A DNA stretch of 64,000 nucleotides from Planococcus sp. SK3692 (GTDB taxonomy: Bacteria; Bacillota; Bacilli; Bacillales_A; Planococcaceae): NCBI RefSeq assembly GCF_028890485.2, contig NZ_JARCHV010000002.1, positions 1,178,001 through 1,242,000 of the forward strand. The letters are read 5' to 3'. Every line of letters begins with the position of its first letter. The first letter of the stretch is position 1. Below are positions 31,382 to 64,000 of the stretch, one piece after another. Below the pieces are notes generated by a model that was not told the DNA's origin, ran no database searches, and saw nothing but the letters and a program-made list of their open reading frames with translations. The translations under genes were made by a program, and so were the position numbers.

Positions 31382-31484
31382 GCTCTTGCAGGCAGACGCG
31401 TGAAGTGATAGTATGGAGAATGTACTTTTATGTAAAGTACACGAATCACGGTGTTCCGCTGCAAAGATTATGGATTGCAAGAGC
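31382..31484 (+). promoter_or_regulatory. putative L19 leader (ribosomal protein autoregulatory RNA)
   Basis: The 135-base gap between trmD and rplS can fold: GCTCTTGCA (31382-31390) is perfectly complementary to TGCAAGAGC (31476-31484), enclosing a hairpin TGTACTTT/AAAGTACA (31421-31428 with 31434-31441). The position and size fit the L19 leader family described ahead of rplS in low-G+C Gram-positives, thought to let L19 regulate its own mRNA. Fold read by eye only. Confidence 0.6.
31386..31414 (+). promoter_or_regulatory. candidate promoter inside the L19 leader
   Basis: TTGCAG (31386-31391), 17-base spacer, TAGTAT (31409-31414). It overlaps the 5' arm of the leader's closing stem, so a transcript starting near 31421 would lack that arm. 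Confidence 0.45.
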
Positions 31485-31507
31485 ATCTGTAGAAGGAGAG
31501 AAAAAAC

Positions 31508-58000: not shown

Positions 58001-59387
58001 GCCGCAAGCGCATAATTACACGAAAGTGCTGTTCGGCGAAGACAATGTCTTCCGCGCGGGCACCATCGGTACCGTGGCAGAAAAAACAGCCTACGGTTAC
58101 GTGCGCGGCTATGCCAACGACCGCGATATGACGATGCGCGGTGCGGAAATTGACCGTTTGGTTCAAGGCTGTTCTGGCGTCAAGCGCAGTACAGGCCAGC
58201 ACCCGGGCGGGATTATTGTTGTGCCGGATTATATGGATATCTACGATTTCTCGCCGATCCAGTTTCCAGCGGATGCACAGGATTCCGAATGGAAGACGAC
58301 CCATTTTGACTTTCACTCGATCCACGATAATTTATTGAAGCTCGATATTCTCGGGCACGATGACCCGACCGTGATCCGCATGCTCCAGGATCTGTCCGGC
58401 ATTGACCCGAAAACGATCCCGACAGATGACCCGGAAGTGATGAAGATTTTCGCAGGCCCTGAATCGCTCGGCGTCACAAAAGAGCAGATCGGCTGCAAAA
58501 CCGGAACACTTGGCATCCCCGAGTTTGGAACGCGATTTGTCCGCCAAATGCTCGAAGATACAAAACCGACGACGTTTTCGGAACTCGTGCAGATTTCCGG
58601 ATTGTCACACGGTACGGATGTTTGGCTCGGCAACGCCCAGGAATTGATCCACAACGGAACATGCCAGCTGTCCGATGTGATCGGCTGCCGGGATGACATC
58701 ATGGTCTACTTGATCTATCAAGGGCTCGAGTCATCACTAGCGTTCAAGATCATGGAATCCGTGCGGAAAGGGAAAGGCTTGACCCCAGAGATGGAAGCGG
58801 CGATGAAAGAAAAAGCCGTTCCGAACTGGTATATCGAATCATGCAAAAAGATCAAATACATGTTCCCGAAAGCGCACGCCGCCGCTTACGTTTTGATGGC
58901 GGTCCGCATCGCTTATTTCAAAGTCCATTTCCCGGTTCTGTACTACGCTGCGTACTTTACGGTTCGGGCGGAAGATTTCGATGTCAACGCCATGGCAAAA
59001 GGATCCCAATCAATCCGTGCCAAAGTGGATGAAATCAATTCACGGGGGCTGGAAGCTTCAACGAAAGAGAAAAACTTGCTGACAGTCATGGAACTGGCGC
59101 TTGAAATGGTCGAACGCGGCTATTCATTCCAAAAGGTCGATTTGTATAAATCGTCCGCAGATCAATTCCTGATTGAAGGCAATACCTTGATCCCGCCATT
59201 CAATGCCATTCCTGGTCTTGGCACGAATGCCGCAAAATCGATCGTTGCCGCTAGAGCGGAAGGCGAATTCCTGTCGAAGGAAGATTTGCAGCAGCGCGGC
59301 CGCGTTTCAAAAACGATCATCGAGTACATGGATGACCATGGCTGCCTAGAAGGAATGCCCGATGCCAATCAGCTCTCCTTGTTCTAG
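55080..59387 (+). CDS. polC: DNA polymerase III PolC-type alpha subunit
   Basis: Main replicative polymerase of low-G+C Gram-positives, with built-in proofreading. Order: N-terminal domain, OB fold (about 230-320), PHP domain start ([17 protein letters not shown] near 336), DEDD exonuclease beginning [10 protein letters not shown] near 422, rest of PHP, then the polymerase with a four-Cys zinc site (CRKCKKSEF...CPDCGIP) and active-site PDIDLNFSG near 963. The ATG at 55080 has GAAGGGGAT; the one at 55062 has no ribosome site. There are 1435 residues, as expected. Confidence 0.97.
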
Positions 59388-59391
59388 TCAG

Positions 59392-59420
59392 TTGCAGAGA
59401 GGCGGGAAGCATGGTATTAT
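59392..59420 (+). promoter_or_regulatory. predicted sigma-A promoter of the rimP-nusA-infB operon
   Basis: TTGCAG (59392-59397), 17-base spacer, TATTAT (59415-59420), immediately after the polC stop. Transcription would begin near 59427, ahead of the hairpin at 59453-59481. Confidence 0.6.
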
Positions 59421-59452
59421 TGTAATAACATTTACTGATAGCTCTGTCGCAG

Positions 59453-59481
59453 AAGAGTGGGTTCTCCCGCTCTTTTCTGTT
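59453..59481 (+). terminator. terminator-like hairpin in the rimP leader (attenuator candidate)
   Basis: AAGAGTGGG (59453-59461) pairs with CCCGCTCTT (59466-59474), loop TTCT, one G-U pair, followed by TTCTGTTT. It lies downstream of the predicted promoter and upstream of rimP, so it can act on operon transcripts as well as end polC. Confidence 0.65.
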
Positions 59482-59513
59482 TGTTATGGCATATTATTGG
59501 CAGGAGGCATTTT

Positions 59514-59993
59514 ATGAGCAAAATTACTGAACAAATCGAAGCAATGGCACAACCAATCATCGATGAGCTGGAACTTGAACTGGTCGATGTCGAGTTTGTG
59601 AAAGAAGGAAAGAACTGGTTCTTGCGCGTTTATGTGGACAATCCACAGGAACCGATCGATATCGATCAATGCGCAATCGTCAGCGAACGCTTGAGCGAAG
59701 AACTCGATGCAACCGATCCGATCGAACAGAACTATTTCCTTGAAGTATCTTCACCGGGTGCAGAGCGTCCATTGAAGAAAGAAAAGGATTTCGAAAAAGC
59801 TTTGGAGAATTTCATCTATATCAAAACGTATGAGCCGGTGGAAGATGCTAAAGAATTCGAAGGTTACTTGAAGTCGTATGATGAAGAACAAGTGGAAATC
59901 GAGGTCAAGATCAAGACCCGCAGAAAAACCATCAGCATCCCGAGAAATAAAATTGCCATGATCCGTCTGGCGATCGATTTTTCTGCAAGCTGA
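59514..59993 (+). CDS. rimP: ribosome maturation factor RimP
   Basis: Helps early assembly of the 30S subunit. The N-terminal domain shows LELVDVEFVKEGKNWFLRVYVDNP and the conserved VSSPGAERPLKKEKDFEKA; a C-terminal Sm-like barrel follows. The ATG at 59514 follows CAGGAGGCA and gives 159 residues, although the frame is open for 19 more codons through the leader hairpin. First gene of the rimP-nusA-rnpM-rplGA-infB group. Confidence 0.95.
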   Translation: MSKITEQIEAMAQPIIDELELELVDVEFVKEGKNWFLRVYVDNPQEPIDIDQCAIVSERLSEELDATDPIEQNYFLEVSSPGAERPLKKEKDFEKALENFIYIKTYEPVEDAKEFEGYLKSYDEEQVEIEVKIKTRRKTISIPRNKIAMIRLAIDFSAS

Positions 59994-60019
59994 ATAGAAG
60001 AATTTAGGAGTGAATAACT

Positions 60020-61147
60020 ATGAGCAGTGAGCTATTGGATGCTTTAGAAGTATTGGAGAAACAAAAAGGAATATCACGTGATGTGCTGATCGAAGCGATC
60101 GAAGCAGCGCTTGTCACCGCTTATAAGCGCAATTTCAACCAAGCGCAGAACGTCCGTGTCGATTTAAACCTCGATACCGGAACGATGCTAGTCTACTCCC
60201 GCAAAGATGTTGTCGAGGAAGTCGAAGATGACCGCCTGCAAATCTCATTGGAAGATGCGCATGCACTCAACCCGGTTTATGAAATCGGCGATATCGTGGA
60301 AGAAGAAGTGACTCCGCGTAATTTCGGCCGCATCGCTGCTCAAACTGCGAAACAAGTCGTCACACAGCGTGTGCGTGAAGCAGAGCGCGGATTGATCTTT
60401 GAAGAGTACGTAGACCGTGCAGACGATATCGTCAACGGGATCGTCGAACGCATGGATGCCCGTAACCTCTATGTCGGCTTAGGCAAAGTCGAAGCGGTCT
60501 TGCCGCAGACGGAACAAATGCCGAATGAAAGCTACCAGCCACATGACCGCATCAAAGTCTATATCACGAAAGTCGAACGCACGACTCGTGGCCCGCAAGT
60601 GTTCGTATCACGGACTCATCCAGGGCTTTTGCGCCGTTTGTTCGAGAACGAAGTGCCGGAAATCTATGACGGCATTGTCGAAATCAAATCGATTGCACGT
60701 GAAGCGGGAGACCGTTCGAAGATTTCCGTCCACGCAAACGACGAGGAAGTGGATCCAGTCGGTTCATGTGTCGGATCACGAGGCGGCCGAGTGCAAACCA
60801 TCGTCAACGAACTGGGCGGCGAGAAAATCGACATCGTGGAATGGTCGGAAGATCCGGTCGTCTTCGTAGCGAATGCGCTCAGCCCATCCAAAGTGTTGGA
60901 TGTGCAAGTGAGTGATGACGATAAATCGACGACAGTCGTCGTACCTGATTACCAATTGTCTCTTGCGATTGGCAAACGCGGGCAAAATGCGCGTTTGGCG
61001 GCGAAATTGACAGGGTGGAAAATTGATATCAAGAGTGAAACGGATGCCCGTGAACTAGGGATTTATCCGCCTGAAGGCGCGGTAATCGTGAAGTCGGATG
61101 CTGAAACTGATACAGATGACTTTGATTTTTACGACGAAGAAGAATAA
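60020..61147 (+). CDS. nusA: transcription termination/antitermination protein NusA
   Basis: RNA polymerase-associated factor that modulates pausing, termination and antitermination. N-terminal polymerase-binding domain (about 1-125), S1 domain (about 135-200; [23 protein letters not shown]), two KH domains ([24 protein letters not shown] and [25 protein letters not shown]), then a short acidic tail. Length 375 is typical of Firmicutes, which lack the repeats of E. coli NusA. Ribosome site TTAGGAGTGA. Confidence 0.97.
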
Positions 61148-61166
61148 GCTGAGAAGGTGATATCCG

Positions 61167-61448
61167 TTGGCTATGCAAAAGAAAATTCCGCTGAGAAAAT
61201 GCGTTGCGACCGGTGAAATGTATCCAAAAAAGGAAATGATCCGCGTTGTGCGTTCCAAAGAAGGAGAAGTATTCGTCGACCTTACCGGCAAAAAGTCAGG
61301 TAGAGGCGCTTATGTTTCCAAATCGGAAGATGCCATTGAATTGGCACGCAAAAAGAAGGTTTTGGACAAGCAGCTTGAAGTGAAAGTTCCAGGCGAAATT
61401 TACGAAGAGCTCGTCCATGCCGTACGCAGAGAGCAGCTGAAATCATGA
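61167..61448 (+). CDS. rnpM: YlxR/RnpM family RNA-binding protein
   Basis: A 93-residue member of the YlxR family, recently described in B. subtilis as a modulator of RNase P; that role is from memory of the literature and not visible here. Diagnostic IPLRKCVATGEMYPKKEMIRVVRSKEG and GRGAYVSKS. The TTG at 61167 is chosen because AGAAGGTGA sits 6 bases before it; an ATG two codons later is possible. Overlaps rplGA by 4 bases. Confidence 0.92.
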   Translation: MAMQKKIPLRKCVATGEMYPKKEMIRVVRSKEGEVFVDLTGKKSGRGAYVSKSEDAIELARKKKVLDKQLEVKVPGEIYEELVHAVRREQLKS

Positions 61449-61753
61449 ATAAAGAAAAAATCCTGCAGTTTTTAGGGCTTGCCACGCGTGCGCGCAAGCT
61501 GGTGACCGGTGAAGAACTGGTCATTAGCGAAGTGCGCCGCGGCAACGCGAAATTAGTCATTTTGGCTGAAGATGCGTCTGAAAACACGAGAAAAAAACTG
61601 CACGATAAATGCAATTCCTATAATGTCCCAATGCGCATAGGCGCCAGCCGCTATGAGATTGGCCATGCAATAGGAAAAGAAGCACGCGTCGTCCTGGCGA
61701 TTACCGATAACGGTTTTGCCAAGAAAATGACGAGCATGTTTGACGAAAACTAA
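61445..61753 (+). CDS. rplGA: L7Ae-family ribosomal/K-turn binding protein (YlxQ)
   Basis: A 102-residue L7Ae/L30e-fold protein, expected to bind kink-turn [24 protein letters not shown] and [17 protein letters not shown] are typical, as is the central placement between ylxR and infB. Its RNA targets in Firmicutes are unclear. Start overlaps the previous stop. Confidence 0.92.
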
Positions 61754-61767
61754 CCGGGGGTGAGCAG

Positions 61768-64000
61768 ATGACCAAAATTCGAGTACATGAATACGCTAAA
61801 AAAGTAAATAAACCGAGCAAAGACATCATTGACGAATTATCAAAAATGAATATTAAAGTTAATAACCATATGGCTACACTAGAAGATACTGCTGTAACGA
61901 AATTGGACGGCATTTACAAAAAACCTGCACAAGGAAACCGTGCCCAAAGTTCACAATCACGCCCGCAAGGCCAAAACCAGCGCCGTGGGCAAAGTGGACA
62001 AGCAAGCCAAGGCGGACAAAACCGCTCACCAGGCGGGCAATCCCGTCCTCAAAGTGGACAGGGCCAAAACCGTACAAGCGGACAAGGCGGGCAAAACCGT
62101 ACACAAGGCGGCCAGGGCAGCCAGGGTAGCCAGAACCGTACGCAATCCACGCAGCAAGGAACAAGCCAAGCAGGGCGCGGTTCCAACTTTACGCCAAAAG
62201 CTGCAAAACCGGCTCCAGGACCAGGCCAACGCGGCCGTTCAAACGGACCGGGGCGCGGCGGGCAAAACCGCAACCGTAAAGGCAAACAGCAGCGTCCGGT
62301 GAACCCGATGCCGCCAATGCCGAAGCGAGAAAAAGAATTGCCGTCAAAAATCACATTTAGTGAATCTTTGACTGTTGGCGATTTGGCGAAAAAACTCGGC
62401 CGCGAGCCTTCAGAAATCATCAAAAAATTGTTCATGCTAGGTGTTATGGCAACCATCAACCAAGAATTGGATAAAGATGCCATTGAACTTGTCTGTGCAG
62501 AATACGATGTGGAAGTAGAAGAAGAAATCTTGGTCGATAAAACCGATTTGGAAGTCTACTTCGAACCTGAAGAAGAAGCTAAAAAAGAAGAACGTCCATC
62601 TGTCGTTACGATCATGGGCCACGTCGACCACGGGAAAACGACATTGCTGGATTCAATCCGCCACACGAAAGTGACTGCTGGAGAAGCAGGTGGGATCACA
62701 CAGCATATTGGTGCTTACCAAGTCGAAGAAGACGGTAAAAAAATCACGTTCCTGGATACGCCAGGCCACGCAGCGTTCACGACGATGCGTGCGCGCGGTG
62801 CGAAAGTAACGGATATTGCTATCATCGTTGTTGCTGCTGATGACGGTGTTATGCCGCAGACAGTCGAAGCGATCAACCACGCAAAAGCTGCAGAAGTTCC
62901 GATCATCATCGCAGTCAATAAAATGGATAAACCGTCCGCTAACCCGGACCGTGTCATGCAGGAATTGACCGAGCACGGTCTTGTACCTGAAGCATGGGGC
63001 GGCGATACGATTTTCGTTCCGCTTTCCGCATTGACTGGAGACGGCATTGATACACTTCTTGAAATGATCCTTCTGGTTTCTGAAGTTGGAGAATTGAAAG
63101 CAAATCCTGGCCGCCGTGCAATCGGTACGGTCATTGAAGCGGAACTTGATAAAGGCCGCGGATCTGTCGCGACTTTGCTCGTGCAGGATGGCACTTTGCA
63201 TGTCGGCGACCCAATCGTTGTCGGCAATACATTCGGACGCGTGCGTGCAATGGTCAACGATCTTGGCCGCCGCGTGAAAACAGCTGGCCCATCTACTCCA
63301 GTTGAAATTACAGGACTCAGTGATGTGCCGCAAGCAGGCGACCGTTTCGTTGTCTTTGAAGACGAGAAAACGGCCCGTCAAATCGGTGAAGCGCGTTCGG
63401 CTACGGCCTTGCAGGAGATGCGTTCTGAAAAGAACCGCGTTACATTGGATAACTTGTTTGATCAATTGAAGCAAGGCGAAATGAAAGAGTTGAACTTGAT
63501 TGTCAAAGCTGACGTTCAAGGTACAGTGGAAGCCATGGCTGCTTCACTCTTGAAAATCGATGTGGAAGGCGTCAACGTCAAAGTCATCCATACAGGTGCC
63601 GGCGCCATTACGGAATCCGATGTTTCACTAGCTGCAGCATCAAATGCCATCATCATCGGCTTTAACGTCCGCCCGGATGTCAATGCTAAACGTGCAGCAG
63701 ATGCAGAAGGCGTCGATATCCGCTTGCACCGCATCATCTATAAAGTGATCGAAGAAATCGAAGCAGCGATGAAAGGTCTCTTGGACCCAGAGTTCGAAGA
63801 GAAAATCATCGGCCAAGCGGAAATCCGCAGCACGTTCAAAGTGTCTAAAGTCGGGACGATTGCCGGAAGCTATGTAACGGAAGGCAAGATCACCCGCGAT
63901 AGCGGTGTACGAGTCATCCGCGATGGCATCGTTGTGTTCGAAGGCGAGATCGATACGTTGAAACGCTTCAAAGATGACGCAAAAGAAGTTGCCAAAGGCT
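61768..64000 (+). CDS. infB: translation initiation factor IF-2, 3' end cut off by window edge
   Basis: GTPase that brings fMet-tRNA to the 30S subunit. The 744 complete codons visible read: N-terminal domain (1-50, [20 protein letters not shown]), a low-complexity Q/G/N/R/S-rich linker (about 53-195), a second IF2-N domain ([19 protein letters not shown]), then the G domain with P-loop GHVDHGKT at 284-291, DTPGH near 330 and NKMD at 384-387, followed by domains II, III and part of IV. Ribosome site GGGGGTGA before the ATG. The frame is open to the last base; the C-terminal residues lie beyond the window. Confidence 0.97.

Follow-up and report, generated by a model that had tools for sequence, protein, structure and literature searches.

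The window analysed here, a stretch of 64,000 nucleotides of Planococcus DNA, contains the boundary between polC and rimP, and the promoter, leader elements, and genes described below are all on the + strand. The TAG stop codon of polC is located at 59385-59387 and the ATG of rimP at 59514-59516. The rimP gene (59514-59993; Pfam RimP_N and RimP C-terminal SH3 domain) is followed by nusA (60020-61147; NusA_N, S1, and KH_5), ylxR (61167-61448; YlxR), and a ylxQ-like gene of the L7Ae family (61445-61753; Ribosomal_L7Ae). According to the Pfam assignments, RimP, NusA, YlxR, and the L7Ae-family protein are encoded consecutively. The RimP encoded here shares 100% identity with the RimP of an uncultured Planococcus. 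The rimP frame also extends upstream of the ATG, through the leader hairpin as far as position 59457, where a GTG is found. The likely start is the ATG at 59514, which is preceded by the ribosome-binding site GGAGG at 59503-59507. Elsewhere in the window, a ribosomal protein L19 leader (Rfam RF00556) scores above cut-off at 31448-31489.

In the leader between polC and rimP, a promoter can be recognized from the sequence at 59392-59420. It is composed of a -35-like TTGCAG (59392-59397), a 17-base spacer, and an extended -10 element, TGG TATTAT, in which TGG (59412-59414) supplies the last three spacer bases and TATTAT occupies 59415-59420. Transcription is predicted to start at about 59427. Past this predicted start, an ATAG block identified by family comparison (59438-59441) precedes a terminator hairpin of 11 pairs, AGAAGAGTGGG-TTCT-CCCGCTCTTTT, which spans 59451-59476 with stem arms at 59451-59461 and 59466-59476 and TTCT as the loop. 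This assignment draws on the sequence, the fold, the comparison of relatives, and compensatory changes. A broken U-tract, TTTTCTGTTTGTT, is located at 59473-59485 by sequence and comparison, and RNA 3' ends are predicted at about 59478-59485. The initial annotation had already placed a hairpin with a U-tract before the rimP ATG; both are present, although the limits given for them, 59453-59481, were slightly off, as the element extends over 59451-59485. The initial annotation noted one G-U pair in the stem; the stem contains U59458-G59469 and also G59452-U59475.

As seen in the single sequence, the -35 element agrees with the consensus at only 3 of 6 positions, which is poor, and the whole promoter at 8 of 12. 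For this reason, the promoter was not listed by a promoter scan that demands 9 of 12. The number of terminator-like sites in 58500-64000 was 6, compared with 7.4 expected from shuffles. Single-sequence scans alone therefore set neither the promoter nor the terminator apart from chance and prove neither. The leader at 59427-59485 folds better than 200 of 200 shuffles (z -3.6). The hairpin pattern, with its loop left open and up to 3 mismatches permitted, is expected 0.04 times per shuffled window, an expectation for a pattern that was derived from the hairpin itself. In the fold of the own leader, the leader also pairs with the ribosome-binding site (z -1.9), and the distance from the hairpin to the ATG varies widely among relatives. 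No family of Rfam release 15 reached the gathering cut-off at the leader; matches at E<=5 were limited to the L20 leader and, on the opposite strand, a viral hairpin, each far under the cut-off. The boxA sequence GYTCTTTAANA (PMC5725501) was not matched, the 3' arm giving GCTCTTT only; GYTCTTT itself occurs in 105 of 110 family hairpins but in only 10 of 83 class hairpins.

The initial annotation had further argued that this is the kind of weak terminator that depends on NusA. The U-tract is indeed broken, but this is no sign of special weakness, because 8 of the 11 terminator-like hairpins in the window likewise have no run of at least 6 T (the 11 include the rimP-leader hairpin, and one was counted on both strands). 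The stem, at -14.8 kcal/mol, is moderately stable.

In the family Planococcaceae, RimP was found in 150 of 151 genomes, and the leaders were read in 110 of these 150. A hairpin of the rimP-leader kind is present in all 110 leaders. The 5' arm reads GAGTGGG in 108, a G stands opposite the U of this arm in 105, and the exact string CCCGCTCTTTTCTGT is found in 92. The promoter is also backed by this comparison. TTGC in the -35 region and a TG before the -10 element are each found in 109 of 110 leaders; the promoter finder rewards such a TG, and the controls taken 130 bases further upstream show it in 15 of 102. The distance from the -10 element to the GAGTGGG core is 33-35 bases in 97 of 110. Thus, the promoter proposed by the initial annotation, TTGCAG-17-TATTAT starting 4 bases past polC, is borne out. 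Identity within the family reaches 98-99% in the arms and 92% in the tail, compared with 28-52% in the other windows around them. The stretch from the -10 element to the hairpin reaches 44-52%, and the promoter spacer and the stretch after the tail 29%, near background. In 84 of 110 leaders, the ATAG block precedes the core by 16 or 17 bases; no pairing partner for it was found. Median hairpin stability is slightly lower in the family (-14.3 kcal/mol) than in other Bacilli (-15.7 kcal/mol).

Beyond the family, the leaders of all 84 class genomes outside it were read, the family genome G018 being left out of the class counts. A hairpin of the rimP-leader kind was matched in 83 of 84 with patterns that had been widened after misses in the first scan (79 of 85). 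These matches comprise 72 with GAGTGGG, 6 with GAGTAGG, 3 with GAGTGAG, and 2 with a divergent stem (G191 and G204); the only unmatched leader, that of G174, carries a comparable divergent stem on visual inspection. In one genome, G178, the hairpin is far upstream, more than 300 bases from the RimP match. The phylum sample was chosen by RimP alone (1 of 71 genomes was without a match), and the leader was read in every one of the 67 RimP-matching genomes outside the class. The strict pattern GAGTGGG..CCCRCTC is found in 54 of these 67 leaders; visual inspection reveals a related hairpin in 12 of the 13 remaining leaders and none in G348. A T-rich tail behind the hairpin, with 5 to 8 T in 9 bases, was counted in 193 leaders, and a tract opening with at least 6 consecutive T occurs in 0 of 193 family and class leaders. 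By these counts, a predicted attenuator hairpin is present in nearly every Bacillota leader sampled and is unusually fixed in sequence.

The leaders with divergent stems, L217 (G174), L218 (G204), and L225 (G191), all belong to one family, f24, and carry a different stem around GGCG..CGCC before rimP. This family is presumably Streptococcus-like. In these three genomes, the stem sequence has thus been replaced and a predicted hairpin has remained.

A second conserved terminator-like hairpin, AAATTTCACCA-loop-TGGTGGAATTT and then CTGTTTTT, is observed in some relatives between the first hairpin and the rimP ATG. A stem scan detected it in 24 of the 110 family leaders, and a looser motif raised the count to 26. 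The carriers include L026 (G070), L025 (G125), L061 (G015), and L091 (G019), and among them are Ureibacillus terrenus and Lysinibacillus odysseyi. The strict pattern of this second hairpin occurs once per genome in 7 of 7 carrier genomes tested and is absent from the own genome. In the consulted portion of the 2010 survey (PMC2965389), tandem terminators are described for Gammaproteobacteria only.

At the RNA level, the 11-pair stem was compared across 144 distinct hairpins, in which 95.5% of cells are paired. Compensatory changes, for which the initial annotation had proposed a leader alignment, were found: 7 stem pairs have changed on both sides, and 0 of 500 shuffles, which take no account of relatedness, reach the observed values. 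Sliding the partners cuts pairing to at most 68.6%. A slide of +1 gives 42 cells changed on both sides (vs 39 for the real register) and as many pair types (19), although pairing falls to 63.3% of cells and the covariation score to half. Across the 144 hairpins, the U of the 5' arm is opposite G in 77 and opposite A in 65, the 2 others being unpaired, and C-G is never seen at this pair. The 3' partner switches within at least 5 families (f1, f8, f13, f14, and f32) with the 5' U held constant, and the loop varies in length. The nearly symmetric and highly conserved sequence could also be read as a DNA operator for a dimeric regulator and not as an RNA hairpin. The U-G pairs, however, keep the RNA stem but break the palindrome of the DNA in 77 of 144 hairpins, which indicates that the stem works as RNA, and the variable loop and the T-rich tail counted behind the hairpin also argue against an operator. 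This reading is thus considered extremely improbable.

The hairpin is located about 65 bases past the polC stop and must act on polC transcripts too. It might be a plain terminator of the upstream polC operon, with an incidental promoter match and with rimP transcribed by read-through. RimP is present at 52 of the 54 loci tested. At 24 of these 52, from 23 distinct genomes, polC is missing from the flank and the hairpin is kept; some of these loci had been chosen by the hairpin model itself. Of the 25 class loci chosen by RimP and tested for polC, 9 have none in the flank, and the hairpin is found at each of these 9, 5 of which come from one genus (g24). The hairpin is therefore not merely a polC terminator, as it stays with rimP where polC is absent. 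The nearly fixed distance of the promoter upstream of the hairpin across the family also speaks against such a reading, which is held to be very unlikely. This linkage to rimP without polC, together with the deep conservation, upholds the earlier view of a terminator placed between the promoter and the first gene of the nusA operon.

The specificity of the element was examined with a covariance model that was built from the distinct hairpins and searched on the own genome. One strong site was found, at 47 bits, and the next is about 15 bits weaker (32.3); 27 matches were obtained up to E 5, and the nine weaker sites examined resemble ordinary terminators or attenuators of other genes. Outside the class, 22 of the 24 top-scoring phylum matches are located before rimP. 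One other site, L258 (G000:C4:618804-618849, minus), has a GGGGTGGGG..CCCCACCCC hairpin and a T-run directly before a gene whose translation resembles phosphoglycerate kinase; it is possibly another attenuator or an intergenic terminator.

The promoter, the hairpin, its pairing at the RNA level, and its linkage to rimP are thus supported by comparison of the genomes. From these, a mechanism can be proposed. RNA polymerase would start at the promoter just past polC and make about 24 bases before transcribing the hairpin and the broken U-tract. Part of the transcripts would stop there, leaving a leader RNA of about 55 bases, and the remaining transcripts would run on into rimP, nusA, ylxR, and the L7Ae-family gene. 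While bound to the polymerase, NusA would aid formation of the hairpin and stimulate release, and more NusA would therefore mean more termination and less expression of rimP-nusA. Most likely, the attenuator lets NusA limit its own production, by analogy with a control already described in other bacteria. For Planococcus, we infer NusA dependence, and NusA-stimulated attenuation as the working mechanism, from that analogy, in which termination within this leader comes from S. agalactiae and the NusA feedback from B. subtilis. The whole account, a rimP-leader attenuator with NusA feedback on rimP-nusA expression, is regarded as probable.

Several other forms of control were considered. The roughly 24 bases from the predicted start to the hairpin leave no room for a leader peptide. 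A long helix that would pair the transcript's 5' end with UGUUGUU downstream of the U-tract (11 pairs in G012) found no support, as 288 of 2000 genus-level permutations scored as high, and neither did a small upstream hairpin as antiterminator, with 905 of 2000 permutations as high. Given the lack of space for a leader peptide, the absence of an Rfam family at its cut-off, and the failure of these two alternative structures in the permutation tests, a factor-modulated or a constitutive terminator remains. A constitutive attenuator would let a fixed fraction of polymerases read through with no feedback, and it agrees with the permutation tests, which support no antiterminator. Such strong conservation would, however, be unexpected for an element of fixed value, and feedback has been reported for B. 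subtilis, as stated in a 2025 review (PMC12288461). A constitutive attenuator is therefore judged unlikely, and modulation by NusA is preferred.

The conservation of the sequence nevertheless seems to go beyond the apparent need of a plain NusA-stimulated terminator, and the model of NusA feedback does not explain it. The constancy of the U in the 5' arm, whose partner switches between A and G, suggests that this arm is recognized by its sequence too. The hairpin could be a sequence-specific RNA site at which NusA, RimP, YlxR, or the L7Ae-family protein reads GAGUGGG and decides termination. Feedback would then act by specific binding and not by general stimulation, which refines the preferred explanation more than it opposes it. 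The constant U facing G or A but never in C-G, the partner switches within at least 5 families, and the retention of GAGTGGG in 54 of 67 leaders outside the class are in keeping with such a site. In their survey, Naville and Gautheret also inferred protein recognition from the conserved GGG..CCC, with NusA as the best candidate (PMC2965389). On the other side, another stem sequence occupies this position in G174, G191, and G204, six class leaders carry GAGTAGG and three GAGTGAG, and contacts of RNA polymerase might hold the arm instead. Such a site is possible, and it is put forward tentatively. With similar reserve, it may be conjectured that the leader is a dedicated RNA switch read by its sequence and not only a weak terminator aided by NusA. 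NusA or a further operon-encoded protein would recognise GAGUGGG, which is kept in most Bacillota sampled, and the Lysinibacillus/Ureibacillus branch would have a second hairpin of equal specificity. The concrete question raised is which factor reads the fixed 5' arm GAGUGGG. The review (PMC12288461) puts the share of intrinsic terminators that NusA stimulates in B. subtilis at about 75%, and a switch that sets the NusA level would thus bear on much of the transcriptome.

As a class of element, the Planococcus leader is, judged from its sequence features, the rimP-leader attenuator published by Naville and Gautheret in 2010. In that survey, the rimP-leader is described as the most ubiquitous transcription attenuator, found in Firmicutes and Gammaproteobacteria; rimP is placed first among attenuation-regulated genes, and NusA is proposed as the likely sensor (PMC2965389). 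The published element is a terminator hairpin with GGG in the 5' arm, CCC in the 3' arm, and a T-stretch, located in the 5' UTR of the rimP-nusA-infB operon in most species (PMC2965389). The Planococcus element likewise lies in the 5' UTR of rimP in a rimP-nusA operon, with GGG at 59459-59461, CCC at 59466-59468, and a T-stretch, TTTTCTGTTTGTT, that is broken; its motif is specific to rimP leaders, as indicated by the own-genome search and the best phylum matches. The published description reports no antiterminator and places the gene start 4-130 bases downstream, and the distance in Planococcus is 37. The inner c..g pair of the published notation (GGGc..gCCC, PMC2965389) is absent from Planococcus, in which the loop is TTCT; the lower-case letters are taken here to mark a position of lower conservation that does not define the motif. 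Across the genomes analysed, conservation covers a longer stretch, AAGAGTGGG..CCCRCTCTT, than in the published motif (PMC2965389), a difference that may be a matter of notation only.

For B. subtilis, the review (PMC12288461, citing Mondal et al. 2016) describes NusA as limiting its own synthesis through termination that it stimulates in its 5' leader, which bears out the precedent named in the initial annotation. The review also notes that the contribution of NusA is greatest where hairpins are weak and U-tracts interrupted. In both species, the transcript that encodes NusA carries an intrinsic terminator in its leader, a predicted one in Planococcus, and the NusA effect, reported for B. subtilis, is presumed for Planococcus. 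The suggestion of the same logic in another genus was right in kind but not new, since the 2010 survey had already found it widespread. For the rimP-nusA operon of S. agalactiae (gbs0413-gbs0418), an RNA-seq study reports a short and a long transcript from one start (PMC4448216). A terminator shortly past the operon start is thus shared with Planococcus, with termination 31 bases past the start in S. agalactiae compared with about 55 predicted here. The E. coli metY-rimP-nusA leader (L266) also has a hairpin (GGGC-loop-GCCC) with a T-run before rimP. Unlike that of Planococcus, it has no GAGTG extension and is preceded by the tRNA gene metY and a further hairpin with a T-run. Repression of the E. 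coli operon by NusA is mentioned in PMC2965389, and in a study of E. coli 3' ends, a rimP fusion was expressed lower in a rho mutant (PMC7815308), which is neutral for the rimP-leader reading. In the main text of the NusA and NusG Term-seq paper (PMC8060035), ylxS and rimP are absent, and PMC12820379 contains no rimP. Among the titles listed in the literature searches, none names a rimP leader in Planococcaceae. The kind of element found in Planococcus is already known from these systems, and the Planococcus rimP-leader itself is a new member.
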